A DNA stretch of 12,438 nt from Candidatus Schekmanbacteria bacterium (GTDB lineage: Bacteria > CSSED10-310 > JACPHN01), in NCBI GenBank assembly GCA_016188575.1, contig JACPHN010000200.1, forward strand, positions 1 to 12,438, written 5' to 3'. Below are positions 2,701 through 11,308 of the stretch, in pieces. The notes under the pieces were generated by a model. It saw nothing but the letters and a program-made list of their open reading frames with translations, ran no database searches and was not told where the DNA came from. A program made the position numbers and the translations under genes. The stretch's first letter is position 1, and each line of letters opens with the position of its first letter.

Positions 2701-2979
2701 CAAAAGCCTCCCTCACGCTCGGCGAGCAAGGTTTTTCGCACCTCGCCGGCAGGGTCCACCGCCAGGTTGGGGGTCGGGCTCTCATCCGAGACCGAGGGCA
2801 ACCGGATGATGCCCTTGCGCGCCAGCGCTAGCAACGACTCGGGTATCGAAACCAGGGAAAACGGCACGATTTGCACGACGGGTGGCCCCTGTCGGTGACG
2901 ACGATTTGCTCACTCGATCGGACCTCTGCTACTAGCCCACTGAGGCCACTTTTTATTGAGCCATCGAAACCGATTTCAT
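2700..2979 (-). pseudogene. Phd/YefM-type antitoxin, two single-base frameshifts
   Basis: Read in three joined frames this is a typical Phd-family antitoxin. The start is MKSVSMAQ, then, after adding one T at about 2955-2957, LKSGLSGLVAEVRSSEQ and IVVTDRGHP. After adding one base in the GGG at 2880-2882 (plus strand), it continues VVQIVPFSLVS and a C-terminal tail ending EREGGF before TGA at 2700-2702. The N-terminal part is the DNA-binding and dimerisation domain; the tail would occlude the toxin active site. As written, translation stops after eight codons at TAA. AAGG lies six bases before ATG 2979. The stop overlaps the toxin start by one base, the usual toxin-antitoxin arrangement. With both genes broken the module should be silent, unless the gaps are sequencing artefacts. 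Confidence 0.7.
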
Positions 2980-3008
2980 ATTGACCTTTTTATGCTGTTT
3001 GAGATAGT

Positions 3009-3434
3009 TTGCCCACGGTCTTCCCATTCCCAGAGCTCCCGGCCACCCCCCAAGAGTCGAGACGCCTTGCGGATCATCGCGAAAAAGAAACCACGCTGTC
3101 CCCAGACCGGGAACGGACATGCAGCCTGTGCAACGAGTCCTTTTGGCCGCGCCGCGCTGCTTTCGTGCTGTACGCGCGCGGCGTGCAGATCGGGCTTGCA
3201 TGCCCAGACTCTCTTGGCCTGCCAGGCGAGCCCAACCTTCAGCTCATCTTGGTGCCGATTCGCCTGCGTGGCCGGGCTCGGCCTGAGGCGCTCATCGAGT
3301 GCCCACGCTGCCAACGGCGCAGTCGTTTCGGCATCTTGCACCAGTGCGAATGCCTGCAAGCTGAGTGCAGCCACCTGCTCGATCTGCTCGAAGTCCCCGG
3401 CGGGCAATACTTCGCGATCTCTCGCGCGGCCTGA
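3009..3434 (+). CDS. Small cysteine-rich protein, probable zinc-binding, function unknown
   Basis: A 141-residue frame with strong G/C bias at codon third positions, as in the real genes here. Not recognised as a named family. Cysteines occur in pairs expected of a zinc ribbon: C38-x2-C41 (RTCSLCNESFWPRR), C65 in LACPDS, C98-x2-C101 (IECPRCQRR), then C113, C115 and C120. A second cysteine expected after C65 is replaced by serine. No membrane segment or signal peptide is seen. The only possible start is TTG 3009, because a TGA lies just upstream and no ATG or GTG precedes the first cysteine pair; no clear ribosome site is visible. The start lies about 30 bp from the divergent antitoxin start, so the two would share a regulatory region. 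The gene ends 73 bp before the Uma2 gene. Confidence 0.6.
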   Translation: MPTVFPFPELPATPQESRRLADHREKETTLSPDRERTCSLCNESFWPRRAAFVLYARGVQIGLACPDSLGLPGEPNLQLILVPIRLRGRARPEALIECPRCQRRSRFGILHQCECLQAECSHLLDLLEVPGGQYFAISRAA

Positions 3435-3466
3435 ACGGCGCGGCGTAGGAAAAAGCCCGACGGCGG

Positions 3467-3475
3467 TGCTATGCT
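3467..3475 (+). promoter_or_regulatory. Extended -10 promoter candidate for the Uma2 gene
   Basis: TGCTATGCT is an extended -10 (TGn plus TATGCT at 3470-3475). It would start transcription near 3482, ahead of AGGA at 3497-3500 and TTG 3508. No good -35 is visible, as is common for extended -10 promoters. Confidence 0.35.
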
Positions 3476-3507
3476 CGCGTTTGCACGCCGCACGAAAGGA
3501 CCCAACC

Positions 3508-4059
3508 TTGACCACGACCGCGATCCAGGAACGACTCATCACCGCCGACGAGTTCGAGCGCATCGCCCACCGATACGGACGCTCCGAGCTCATCGACGGC
3601 AGGATCATTGAAATGAGCCCTACGAAGCGAAGACACGGCTACATAGAGGGTCGCCTTTACAAGCTCATCGAGCGGCACTGCGAAAAGCTTGGCCTGGGCG
3701 AAGTGGGCACCGGCGAGGTTGGCTGCAAGCTGCCCAACGGCCGGGTTCGTGCACCAGACGTGTTGTTCGTACGCAAGGAGCGTTTAGCTGCGGCGGCTGA
3801 GGACGAGTTTTGGCCATTCGCTCCCGACTTGGCGGTCGAGGTCGTTTCGCCCGACGACAGCGCCCGCGAGGTCCGCGACAAGGCCAACGAGTGGATCGCC
3901 GCCGGTTCCCAGGCCGTCTGGACCGCCGATCCCGCCTCCCGCACCGTCACCGTCTACGCGCTCGCCATGGCCCCCCGCGTGCTCGGCATCGGCGAGACCC
4001 TTGAGGGCGGCTCCGTCCTCCCCGGCTTCGCCTGCCTGGTGGACGAGATCTTCGACTAG
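3508..4059 (+). CDS. Uma2 family (DUF820) PD-(D/E)XK restriction-endonuclease-like protein
   Basis: 183 residues from TTG 3508, which follows AGGA at seven bases; no better start fits, since the frame upstream does not look coding. Uma2 landmarks in order: ITADEFERIA, ELIDGRIIEMSP (27-38), RAPDVLFV (81-88, D84), the core PDLAVEVVSPDDS (106-118, E111), then K125 in VRDKANEWIAAG, and a C-terminal strand pair ending VLPGFACLVDEIFD. D84, E111 and K125 fit the PD-(D/E)XK metal-binding triad. Family members are abundant in cyanobacteria, Planctomycetota, Myxococcota and Chloroflexota, often in many copies; the biological role is not settled. No partner gene is adjacent. Full length and intact. Confidence 0.9.
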   Translation: MTTTAIQERLITADEFERIAHRYGRSELIDGRIIEMSPTKRRHGYIEGRLYKLIERHCEKLGLGEVGTGEVGCKLPNGRVRAPDVLFVRKERLAAAAEDEFWPFAPDLAVEVVSPDDSAREVRDKANEWIAAGSQAVWTADPASRTVTVYALAMAPRVLGIGETLEGGSVLPGFACLVDEIFD

Positions 4060-5066: not shown

Positions 5067-5124
5067 CGGCGTCGGCCGAATGTCGGGTTTCCTCGTTTAC
5101 AAGCTGGGCGTTCGGAGCTGCCTT

Positions 5125-5180
5125 GCCTGATAGGGGTAGGAAGGGCCGGGAGTAACCGGCCCTTCCTACCCCTATCAGGC
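5125..5180. repeat. Perfect 25-bp inverted repeat with 6-nt loop
   Basis: Arms at 5125-5149 and 5156-5180 (GCCTGATAGGGGTAGGAAGG through GGCCGG, and its exact complement) flank the loop GAGTAA. It lies about 95 bp beyond the stop of the PEP-synthase-like gene and 58 bp past the intron breakpoint. Neither side has a T-run, so it is not a classical intrinsic terminator, though it may still stop or stabilise the minus-strand transcript. It could also be a small mobile palindrome. The structure is certain; its role is unknown. Confidence 0.85.
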
Positions 5181-5232
5181 GTGGCCGAAACAATGAACGA
5201 GGCCGACGACGCTGCCGAGCTTTGCAGCGCGC

Positions 5233-8127: not shown

Positions 8128-10881
8128 TCACCACTGCAGCTCGCTTTCCAGGTAGCGAAAGTGGGAATGCAGCACCCGCTCCAGAAACGAGTACTCCTTG
8201 AACGTGTGCGCCATGCAATACAGCGCGAGCCGATTGATGGCGAGATCGTAGCAGGCGAGGTCGAAAACCTCGCGGAACTCCGCCGGGTCGAACGCCGTTC
8301 CGGAATAGCTTTCCAGTTGACGCCGATAGAAGTCGACCCACCGCCAGCGATCGTCGGCACTGGCCTCGGGCGGCAGCACGAACGACAGCAGCTCCGCGAC
8401 GTCGTGTTGCGGCACGTGGATGGTCGCCAGCTCCCAGTCGTAGGCGCAGAGGCGGGGTCCGTCGGGTGTCGCGCGAATGGCGATGTTGCGCGGATTAAAA
8501 TCGTTGTGCACGAGCGTGCGCGGCGCTTCCTCGAGGCGGCCCCAGATTTCCGGCAGGTCGACGATGAGGTCCTTCACGAGGTTGACTCGTATGGGCGTGA
8601 AAATCTCCGGGAACTCGAAAGCGTTGTGGTCGAGCAGCTCCTCCCAGAGCTCGGTCATGCCGATGATCCGCTCCGCGGTAGGAGCATCGATCCAGTCGGT
8701 GGCGAGCAGCGCCGAGAAATCGCCGAGGTACAGGGAGTGAAAGCGCGCGATGTCGCGCAGCGCCACTTCGAGGAAAGCGGGAGTCCACTGCGCGATATCG
8801 TCGACGGTGTTCATGTGGGAGAGGCCCTCGAGGTACTCCATGGCCAGCACGAAGATCTCGTTGCGATCGTCCCGCCAGGTCAGCAGCGTTTTCGGCGCGA
8901 TCTCGGTGTAGCGCGGGTCCTTGAGGTCCGCGATGGCGAGCTCGCGGATGTGGGAGCGGCGCGCCCCGGTCTTGAAGCGGTGCATGTCGAAGGCGACGGC
9001 GAGCTGGCCGCCGCAGGCGTGCGCCAGCGAGGCCGACACGCGGATGAGCTCGGCGTCGGTAGGCTTCGATTTCAGGACGAGCTTCGTTTCACCTTGCCGC
9101 CCGCGCGCGCACCAGCTCACGCGCAGCGGATAGTGGCCGATCATCTTGTCGATCGCGCCCATTCCGAGCTCGGTGAGGATACTCGAGCTGGTGTCCAGCT
9201 CGACCGGGGTGACCGCGGTGACCGTCACTTCGTCCGGGGACAGGGCGTCGGCGGACAGCGCGGCGGCAGCCTGGTCGGCGGCGACGCAGCGGGCAAACAG
9301 CGCCGGCGTGAGCAGCTCCTTGCGCAGGCCGGTCGTAGGCCGGTTGCGCCCCAGGCGCTCGTGCGCGGTCGCGAAATGGCCTGCGGCGATGGCCGCCATC
9401 GTGGAGAGGTCGAGCGCCAGGCAGAACCCGGCGATGATCTCGGCAAGGCGGAAGACGCGGTTGGTGCCGTAGCAGCCGAGCATCTGCAGGCACTCTTTTT
9501 GCGTGGGCAGCGCGGTACCGCCGCCGATCGTGCCGATGATCAGCGTCGGCAGCACCATCGAAGCGTAGACGCCGCCGGCGCCCTGGCGCAGGGTGAAGAT
9601 GCCGAGCGAGCTTTCGTGCACGCAGCCGATGTCCTGGCCGGTGGCCGCGAACATGGCGGCGATGACGTTGGCGATGTTTACGTTGGCGCCGATCATGCCG
9701 ATCTGGATGCCGCCGAGCAGTCCGGCGTGGTAGGTCGTGAGAAGCTGCTCCCGCTGCACTTTCAACACGCGCTCGAGCACCTGATCGGGGATCAGGGCCT
9801 CGGCGATCACCTTGATGCCCCGCCCCTCGATGAAATTCAGCAAGCTCACCTTCTTGTCGCCACTCATGTTGGCTTCGATGATGAAGTTCTCGACGGTGAT
9901 GTCGGGGTAGCTTGCGAGCTCCCGGAGCATCCACTGACACACCTTCCAGGTGACGATGGTGGTCATGTTTTGCCCCGCCGCGTCGCCGGTGCGGTAGACG
10001 AAGCGCAGGTGGATCATGTTGCCGAGCTGAAAGGGTTCGACCGAGACGAGCTCGGCGTATTTGCTGGCGAGCTTGACCTGCTCGCGAATCCCCTCGCGAT
10101 GGTCGGCGATCCAACACTGCAGCCGGTACGCCTCTTCCATGCTGCCGCAGAAAAAGATCGGGGCGCGAATCATTTGCTGGTGGAAGACACGCGTGAAGAC
10201 GCCGCCGGAACGCGACAGGGCGGTCGCGCCGCGGGTCGCCGAGGCGACCAGGGCGCCTTCCGTGGTGGCGAACGGCGCGACCACGTAACCGGTGACGTTG
10301 CGGCCGTTGATCAGCAGGGGGCCGGCGGCACCGAGGGGAATGCTGGCGCCGCCGACGAAGTTTTCGATGTTGCCCTGCAGCGCCTCGGGCTCGTACGGAA
10401 ACGAGCGCACGTGCTCGAGCGTGGTACCCGTGAAGGACTCGAGCCACTTGACTCGGTCCTCCCAGCTCTGGCGCGAATAGTGGCCCCGCAGAGGGACGCG
10501 AGGCGCGGACTTGGCCTCACGGTCGATCGGCTTGTAACGGCCGCTGCGGTCGTTGAGGCGAAGCTCGTCGGAGATGCTCCACAGCCGCGCCCGGGAGCGG
10601 GGATCGTTGGTGACGAAGGAGACGCGGAAGCCGTGGCGAGCGGCGGCGACCTCGCGCACCTCCACGTTGCGGACTTCCACCGTCTTGCGCGGCGAGCTGA
10701 CCGTGAGACTGAGGGCATCGCCGAGCTCGTAGGGGAACTCCTCGAAGACCGCCGCAAACCCGGACTGACCGATTTCGGCGACCTTGCCGGCCAGCACCCG
10801 ACCGTGGGCTTGAAGCGTGGCGGACACTTGCTGTCGCGGGGAAACCTGGTATCTGTCCTGCGGTCTGCCGTCACCGGCCAT
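8128..10881 (-). CDS. Fusion protein: PilZ-like domain, class I HMG-CoA reductase, APH-fold kinase
   Basis: 917 residues; AGGAAAGG precedes ATG 10881. Residues 10-108 look like a PilZ domain with degenerate c-di-GMP motifs. Residues about 135-520 are HMG-CoA reductase (HMG-CoA plus 2 NAD(P)H to mevalonate): ENFVGGASIPLGAAGPL 173-189, TTEGALVAS with catalytic E208, GDKKVSLLNFIEGRG with K343, ATGQD with D417, GTIGGGTALPTQKECLQMLG 450-469, and AAGHFATAH with H507. All four catalytic residues are present, and the motif pattern is that of class I (eukaryotic/archaeal) enzymes. Residues about 585-917 are an aminoglycoside-phosphotransferase/choline-kinase fold: KLVLK (K604), LVHNDFNPRN with D794 and N799, and AYDWE with D815. 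It should phosphorylate a small hydroxylated molecule; mevalonate is an attractive but unproven guess. First gene of a unit with the PEP-synthase-like enzyme. No membrane segments are seen, so it is presumably cytosolic. Confidence 0.9.
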   Translation of the reverse strand: MAGDGRPQDRYQVSPRQQVSATLQAHGRVLAGKVAEIGQSGFAAVFEEFPYELGDALSLTVSSPRKTVEVRNVEVREVAAARHGFRVSFVTNDPRSRARLWSISDELRLNDRSGRYKPIDREAKSAPRVPLRGHYSRQSWEDRVKWLESFTGTTLEHVRSFPYEPEALQGNIENFVGGASIPLGAAGPLLINGRNVTGYVVAPFATTEGALVASATRGATALSRSGGVFTRVFHQQMIRAPIFFCGSMEEAYRLQCWIADHREGIREQVKLASKYAELVSVEPFQLGNMIHLRFVYRTGDAAGQNMTTIVTWKVCQWMLRELASYPDITVENFIIEANMSGDKKVSLLNFIEGRGIKVIAEALIPDQVLERVLKVQREQLLTTYHAGLLGGIQIGMIGANVNIANVIAAMFAATGQDIGCVHESSLGIFTLRQGAGGVYASMVLPTLIIGTIGGGTALPTQKECLQMLGCYGTNRVFRLAEIIAGFCLALDLSTMAAIAAGHFATAHERLGRNRPTTGLRKELLTPALFARCVAADQAAAALSADALSPDEVTVTAVTPVELDTSSSILTELGMGAIDKMIGHYPLRVSWCARGRQGETKLVLKSKPTDAELIRVSASLAHACGGQLAVAFDMHRFKTGARRSHIRELAIADLKDPRYTEIAPKTLLTWRDDRNEIFVLAMEYLEGLSHMNTVDDIAQWTPAFLEVALRDIARFHSLYLGDFSALLATDWIDAPTAERIIGMTELWEELLDHNAFEFPEIFTPIRVNLVKDLIVDLPEIWGRLEEAPRTLVHNDFNPRNIAIRATPDGPRLCAYDWELATIHVPQHDVAELLSFVLPPEASADDRWRWVDFYRRQLESYSGTAFDPAEFREVFDLACYDLAINRLALYCMAHTFKEYSFLERVLHSHFRYLESELQW

Positions 10882-10964
10882 GGCGCGCCTTTCCTGGGGG
10901 GGAATACTCGATGCTCGGACGAGAGCTCACGCTGCCGGCCGGGGGCGCCGAGCAGCGGAAGTGC

Positions 10965-10970
10965 ATTATA
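10965..10970 (-). promoter_or_regulatory. TATAAT -10 box for the HMG-CoA reductase fusion gene
   Basis: A perfect TATAAT on the minus strand lies 83 bases before ATG 10881 and would start transcription near 10958. The -35 region is weak (TGGCAG at an 18-base spacer). That suggests an activator or alternative sigma factor, or a chance match. Confidence 0.45.
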
Positions 10971-11308
10971 CGGTCGGCCGCGCGGCGGCTGCCAGCGCGC
11001 CCGCTGCGATACCTTATCGTTCATCCCCGGTGCAATGCGCAGCGGTGGCGCCGCTCGCGCGACCTTGCGACGTGCGATAGCCAGGGATTACCTTCCATGT
11101 CGCTGGTATACCTTCACGGGAAAACACGAAAGTCTCGGCGCGGTTGCCCCGGGCTTTAGTCCTGCGCGATGCGCGGCCAAGCCCGCGTGTCCAGCCCACT
11201 TGTAGCGCACGGTCACCCCCGTGAACGCTTACGAACAACCGGGTGCAGCGGACAGCGCCCTGCGGTAGTAAGCTACCTCCGAGCGCTGCCGCTGACCCGG
11301 CGCCCCGT
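10971..11308. other. Intergenic region without a recognisable gene
   Basis: This stretch separates the divergent HMG-CoA reductase and hicA promoters. Frames on both strands are short or are tails of antisense ORFs. Short GC-rich self-complementary patches occur around 11130-11200, but none forms a convincing repeat. Nothing else can be supported. Confidence 0.5.

Follow-up and report, generated by a model that had tools for sequence, protein, structure and literature searches.

The window analysed here is an entire contig of 12,438 bp from a 9.2-Mb genome of a sparsely sampled phylum, and the gene context described is that of this contig. On its minus strand, at 8128..10881, lies an open reading frame that runs from ATG to stop over 917 codons with no internal stops and that encodes, according to the frame and to Pfam, a fusion of a PilZ-like domain, a reductase of the class I HMG-CoA reductase (HMGR) fold and a kinase of the APH fold. 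The ATG is preceded by a ribosome-binding-like site (AGGAAAGG, 10888..10895, minus strand), the codon make-up is coding-like (GC1/2/3 of 0.65/0.45/0.87) and the AlphaFold2 model of the full fusion, built with 40 aligned homologues, has a mean pLDDT of 85.5. From the three-domain, single-frame protein proposed in the preliminary description, the intact frame and the HMG-CoA_red and APH domains were recovered, whereas PilZ stayed under the Pfam cut-off. The fusion gene is followed on its strand, after 124 bp, by a second gene with its own AAGGAG site, which encodes P0003 (5274..8003), a 909-aa PEP-synthase/Rph/RedH-like phosphotransferase by family search, motifs and neighbourhoods. It has the phosphohistidine motif LSHSAIVAREL and shares an ATP-binding and a phosphohistidine domain with Rph, RedH/PigC and PEP synthase, but differs from them in that Pfam detects these two domains only and no PEP-binding domain. 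Homologues of P0003 occur near other loci of the fusion kinase. Directly past its gene, an inverted repeat or hairpin with 30-bp arms (5120..5185, no strand assigned) is a candidate end of the two-gene unit formed by the fusion and P0003. Elsewhere on the minus strand of the window, a weakly PIN-like ORF leads into kinase-like sequence and then into an out-of-frame Ser/Thr kinase (2029-2703 and 767-2197); this pair, which may reflect a frameshift or two genes, has a single-frame homologue in contig C217 (L074 14995-19422, 49-62% identity). An ORF on the plus strand (2956-4059) encodes a putative endonuclease domain of the Uma2 type (Pfam E 1.4e-36), and the last 142 nt of the contig (12297-12438) form a perfect palindrome of two 71-nt arms with 100% identity, probably an assembly fold-back.

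The N-terminal domain (residues 15-110; 10552..10839, minus strand) was delimited by Pfam, model and alignment. Pfam PilZ matches residues 15-101 with 19 bits in the whole protein and 22.2 bits in the isolated domain, below the gathering cut-off of 22.5, so that the PilZ resemblance first described is a weak one. The AlphaFold2 model predicts a beta-rich, barrel-like domain (strands 20-91) followed by a helix (94-110); a PDB search with the isolated domain gave no meaningful match, and the structure search with the full-length model returned HMGR and kinase chains only. Its second c-di-GMP motif, (D/N)xSxxG, has the degenerate form EIGQSG in the window protein and is kept in one of the six N-terminal domains compared, that of L016 (DLSEDG). 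Since extensions like that of the window are confined, among the fusion homologues, to proteobacterial members, and PilZ was matched in 2/6 of those compared, we read the domain as a lineage-restricted addition that is PilZ-like but of uncertain identity. In this sense, the N-terminal regulatory domain initially suggested does exist as a domain in the window and in some proteobacterial members, but without an intact c-di-GMP motif.

The reductase domain (residues 140-512; 9346..10464, minus strand) was assigned to the class I HMG-CoA-reductase fold by Pfam, structural match and residue tables. Pfam HMG-CoA_red matches it with E 4.8e-112, far above the cut-off, and its model superposes on 6hr8/6hr7 with Z 37.1 and an rmsd of 1.8 A over 319 residues, with Z 36.5 against human 1dq8 and at most 28.4 against class II enzymes. 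The motif residues already noticed in the sequence (E208, K343, D417 and H507) align with the human catalytic set E559, K691, D767 and H866 and are invariant in 40/40 members, as are R590, N658, D690, K692 and N755 (human numbering) in the 40 aligned fusion reductases; the fold, the catalytic set and R590, D690, K692 and N755 are common to the fusion, human HMGCR and the Methanothermococcus enzyme 6hr7. The pocket, however, differs from that of human HMGCR. The position of Ser684 is occupied by Glu in 35 and by Asp in five of the 40 fusion reductases, and by Ser in none (Glu336 in the window); that of Lys735, a residue with a role in HMG recognition (PMC9500038), is Ala, Ile, His or others and never Lys (0/40; Ala386 in the window); that of Met657 is Gln in 40/40, and that of His752 is Asn or Asp. 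Both HMG-binding residues, Ser and Lys, are kept in the two canonical HMGRs found elsewhere in the window genome. Compared with class I HMGRs, the fusion carries an extra kinase and falls under the NCBIfam cut-off (311.5 bits against the curated equivalog TIGR00533, where 441.8 are needed), and in the tree a single clade (100/99), distinct from the canonical HMGRs, unites the fused reductases. Judging from a few pocket positions, the substrate of the fusion reductase is probably other than HMG-CoA. Standalone HMGR-like proteins without the HMG-binding Ser and Lys were also seen (L064 10103-11269, L065 7773-9035, L013 7926-9197 and L080 5008-6576), in Alteromonas, Vibrio, Photobacterium and Hymenobacter hosts, and the gene cluster of the Alteromonas one also includes AMP-binding, SDR and iron-redox genes. 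Because the atypical clades of Vibrio, Alteromonas and Hymenobacter lack Ser684 and Lys735, the departure from HMG-CoA may be broader than the fusion family.

The preliminary description considered that the fusion makes mevalonate from HMG-CoA and then phosphomevalonate. The intact HMGR fold and catalytic residues, the complete active site of the fused kinase and the use of the mevalonate pathway in the window genome agree with this proposal, but the HMG-recognition residues are gone in 40/40 members, which argues against HMG-CoA as the substrate. The window genome also has a separate canonical mevalonate pathway that includes the two canonical HMGRs, with a diphosphomevalonate decarboxylase over the cut-off and a GHMP mevalonate kinase just under its own, the two genes being adjacent on another contig; no DXP reductoisomerase was found in this genome. 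Other hosts have different markers: DXP reductoisomerase is present, and diphosphomevalonate decarboxylase does not exceed the cut-off, in two Hymenobacter, Limnobaculum, HdN1, two Streptomyces, Actinomadura and the genome of L046, an actinobacterial MAG. In Limnobaculum and in both Streptomyces the fusion is the sole HMGR-family gene found. Antrihabitans (L035) constitutes an exception, with markers of both pathways. In addition, L045 and L046 have a thioester reductase in the place of the HMGR-fold domain. Mevalonate production was consequently rejected as the main reading on the pocket residues and host pathways, and we regard it as very improbable; it is a different reductase substrate, a result that the preliminary description had set against its own proposal, that this evidence favours.

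The kinase domain (residues 552-917; 8131..9228, minus strand) is an APH/choline-kinase-fold small-molecule kinase by Pfam, model and residue tables. Pfam APH matches residues 671-866 with E 4.6e-9, far above the cut-off; the family search gave only APH-type matches and no GHMP fold or motif in this part of the fusion. The motifs reported at the outset, HNDFNPRN (792-799) and DWE (815-817), are present within a complete catalytic set (K604, K606, E647, H792, D794, N799, D815 and E817), and the beta3 Lys, the helix-C Glu, HxDxxxxN and DxE are invariant in 44/44 kinases aligned. Modelled alone on 44 sequences, the domain reached a pLDDT of 92.1 with AlphaFold2, and the predicted pocket is intact. 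Its nearest folds are a corramycin phosphotransferase, a glucosamine kinase, choline kinases and a 25-hydroxysteroid kinase (Z ~16-19), the best match being 8agy (Z 18.7) and choline kinases scoring ~16-18. Fold and catalytic motifs are common to LicA, the corramycin phosphotransferase and the 25-hydroxysteroid kinase, whereas identity to known APH/choline-kinase-like kinases is ~8-16%, and the fused kinase represents a distinct subfamily, placed C-terminal to a thioester reductase. Given the APH fold and the antibiotic phosphotransferases (corramycin, APH) among its nearest folds, the kinase might act in resistance or self-protection, or as a sugar or antibiotic phosphotransferase, fused for co-expression and unrelated to the reductase product. 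This seems to us highly doubtful: choline and steroid kinases are equally near in fold, the fusion is kept across phyla, the thioester-reducing domains to which the kinase is joined belong to two different folds, and the type A clusters described below contain lipid-type genes (CDP-alcohol transferase, DUF3419, UbiA).

A scan with the kinase part over ~85,000 species gave 44 loci with strong matches, 39 of which encode reductase and kinase in one frame, or 41 when the window and a Streptomyces plasmid are added. These 41 are for the most part from Actinomycetota, plus gamma- and one deltaproteobacterium. The actinobacterial hosts are Streptomyces, Kitasatospora, Actinomadura, Nonomuraea, Nocardiaceae and Paractinoplanes, and further hosts are Kosakonia, Limnobaculum, HdN1, Pseudomonadales and one deltaproteobacterial MAG; no relatives were found among viral contigs and phages. 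The fusion on the plasmid of Streptomyces sp. NBC_01435 shows 42% identity and lacks the N-terminal domain. The 41 in-frame loci establish that the reductase-kinase fusion is real, which excludes a kinase that is always separate and rules out a fusion or frameshift artefact. In L036 (Streptomyces sp. NRRL S-646, 9534-11058) the gene is broken over several frames, through sequencing error or decay. The kinase is unfused in two Hymenobacter genomes, and the window kinase groups with Hymenobacter in the kinase tree (100/99); the Hymenobacter HMGR was considered as a split-off half and dropped, as this reductase groups with an Alteromonas plasmid enzyme in a different atypical clade.

An SDR of the NAD_binding_4/thioester-reductase type stands before the kinase, instead of HMGR, in L045 (a gammaproteobacterial MAG) and L046. 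There, domains of the alcohol-forming fatty acyl reductases and NRPS thioester reductases (PF07993, TIGR01746) occupy the reductase slot; the former enzymes are members of the NAD_binding_4 family. These enzymes and the HMGR-fold partner carry out the same type of chemistry on thioesters, but the SDR fold is unrelated and may stop at the aldehyde. L046 falls inside the HMGR-fused actinobacteria, adjoining Nocardiaceae (98/95), although L046 and L045 are long branches in the kinase tree and their exact placement is less certain. Because L045 and L046 carry an SDR where the other fusions carry HMGR, two unrelated thioester-reducing folds alternate 5' of one kinase. In the simplest interpretation, the substrate of the kinase would be their common output, the alcohol formed from a thioester.

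A different course of events is suggested by ACAD10/11, fusions of a kinase with an acyl-CoA enzyme that phosphorylate 4-hydroxyacyl-CoAs (PMC11342911). By analogy with them, the kinase could phosphorylate a hydroxyl already present on the acyl chain (e.g. beta, gamma or omega), before reduction or driving an elimination, and the final product would be an acyl or alkyl derivative that is either unsaturated or phosphorylated. ACAD11 is the sole solved relative of the kinase-family profile by sequence (E 4.4e-4) and, like the fusion, ACAD10/ACAD11 combine a kinase of the APH type with an enzyme acting on acyl thioesters (PMC11342911); their partner is, however, a dehydrogenase and not a thioester reductase, and the ACAD11 match is restricted to the catalytic-loop stretch (profile 247-291). 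The swap between two unrelated thioester-reducing folds points instead to a shared reduction product. We consider phosphorylation of a hydroxyl already on the acyl chain the main rival of a kinase acting on the alcohol made by the reductase, and an unlikely one.

The neighbourhoods of the kinase loci contain two main types of cassette. Type A includes a PEP-synthase-like (PEPS-like) protein in 12 loci, among them the window, a Roseinatronobacter plasmid and, with a weak match, L035; UbiA prenyltransferases also occur in 12 loci, ten of them with a PEPS-like gene and none with a TMK-like one, and further type A genes encode acid-activating AMP-binding enzymes together with DUF3419 or, in its place, a CDP-alcohol transferase plus a CTP-transferase-like protein. 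In type B, a GH3-type acid-activating enzyme and a thymidylate-kinase-like (TMK-like) P-loop protein occur together in 27 loci, and in the Streptomyces plasmid the TMK-like gene overlaps the 3' end of the fusion gene. According to the presence matrix, the 12 loci with PEPS-like and the 27 with TMK-like proteins have no overlap; TMK-like proteins are restricted to actinobacterial groups and, since the distribution largely tracks phylogeny, this exclusivity possibly represents few events. A simple pattern recovered the phosphohistidine motif in 7/10 PEPS-like proteins, that of the window included, and the P-loop is present in 22/22 TMK-like proteins checked. A second phosphate could come from either protein, and this suggests a route from acid to thioester, alcohol, phosphate and diphosphate, the last of which UbiA would use in type A. 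The window contig carries two of the cluster genes only; the nearest UbiA homologue of its genome lies on another contig (28% identity), DUF3419 was not found in this genome, and neither was the c8 family, in a search without positive control. A UbiA-like gene is located 3' of a B12-binding radical-SAM gene in L074 of the same genome (8236-10721).

Taken together, we hold with moderate confidence that the fusion is a bifunctional enzyme, a reductase of a non-HMG acyl thioester and an alcohol kinase. This reading is based on the HMGR fold and catalytic set being kept while Ser684 and Lys735 are lost in 40/40, on a kinase active site that is intact in 44/44 and whose nearest folds phosphorylate small-molecule hydroxyls, on the fusion of the same kinase to another thioester-reductase fold in L045 and L046, and on neighbours that comprise AMP-binding or GH3 proteins plus PEPS-like or TMK-like ones. 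The HMGR-fold domain would convert a CoA- or carrier-protein-bound non-HMG acyl thioester to a primary alcohol at the expense of two NAD(P)H, a conversion of thioester to alcohol that is also catalysed by alcohol-forming fatty acyl reductases (PMC8492656), and the APH-fold domain would turn the alcohol into an alkyl phosphate. P0003, as an ATP-dependent phosphotransferase of the PEP-synthase/Rph type, would probably add a further phosphate, and the resulting alkyl diphosphate may, in related clusters, feed a UbiA-type alkyltransferase. We infer the order of these steps, the diphosphate and anything on substrate identity; the relatives suggest a fatty or polyketide acid converted to a phosphorylated alcohol, rather than mevalonate. 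Against this reading, reduction of a thioester may go no further than the aldehyde, and the target of the kinase could be a different hydroxyl, or one phosphorylated ahead of reduction, as ACAD10/11 do. The phylogenetic pattern behind the PEPS/TMK exclusivity and the two-gene context of the window contig also weigh against it. The self-contained two-step enzyme of the preliminary description is retained as thioester reduction followed by phosphorylation, with an intact kinase pocket and a conserved fusion, but not with HMG-CoA and mevalonate. More tentatively, and as a rather doubtful extension, HMGR-fold or SDR reductase-kinase fusions followed by a PEPS- or TMK-like enzyme may constitute a widespread pathway that converts fatty or polyketide acids to alkyl mono- and then diphosphates, as non-isoprenoid substrates of UbiA-type enzymes for new lipids or secondary metabolites.

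The preliminary description knew of no enzyme with this architecture and, in agreement, we found no description of the reductase-kinase fusion in the open-access papers covered; one may exist elsewhere. Each single domain is already known and the novelty resides in the fusion, or in more than that if the diphosphate route is real. Since one and the same kinase occurs with the HMGR fold or with an unrelated thioester reductase, its function is directly testable. If our reading is true, many Streptomyces, Actinomadura and Kosakonia genomes encode proteins that score as HMG-CoA reductases without making mevalonate, and isoprenoid-pathway predictions would be affected. The reductase-kinase module would also provide a genome-mining hook for uncharacterised lipids and natural products, and the HMGR fold would be tied to general alcohol-forming thioester reduction.
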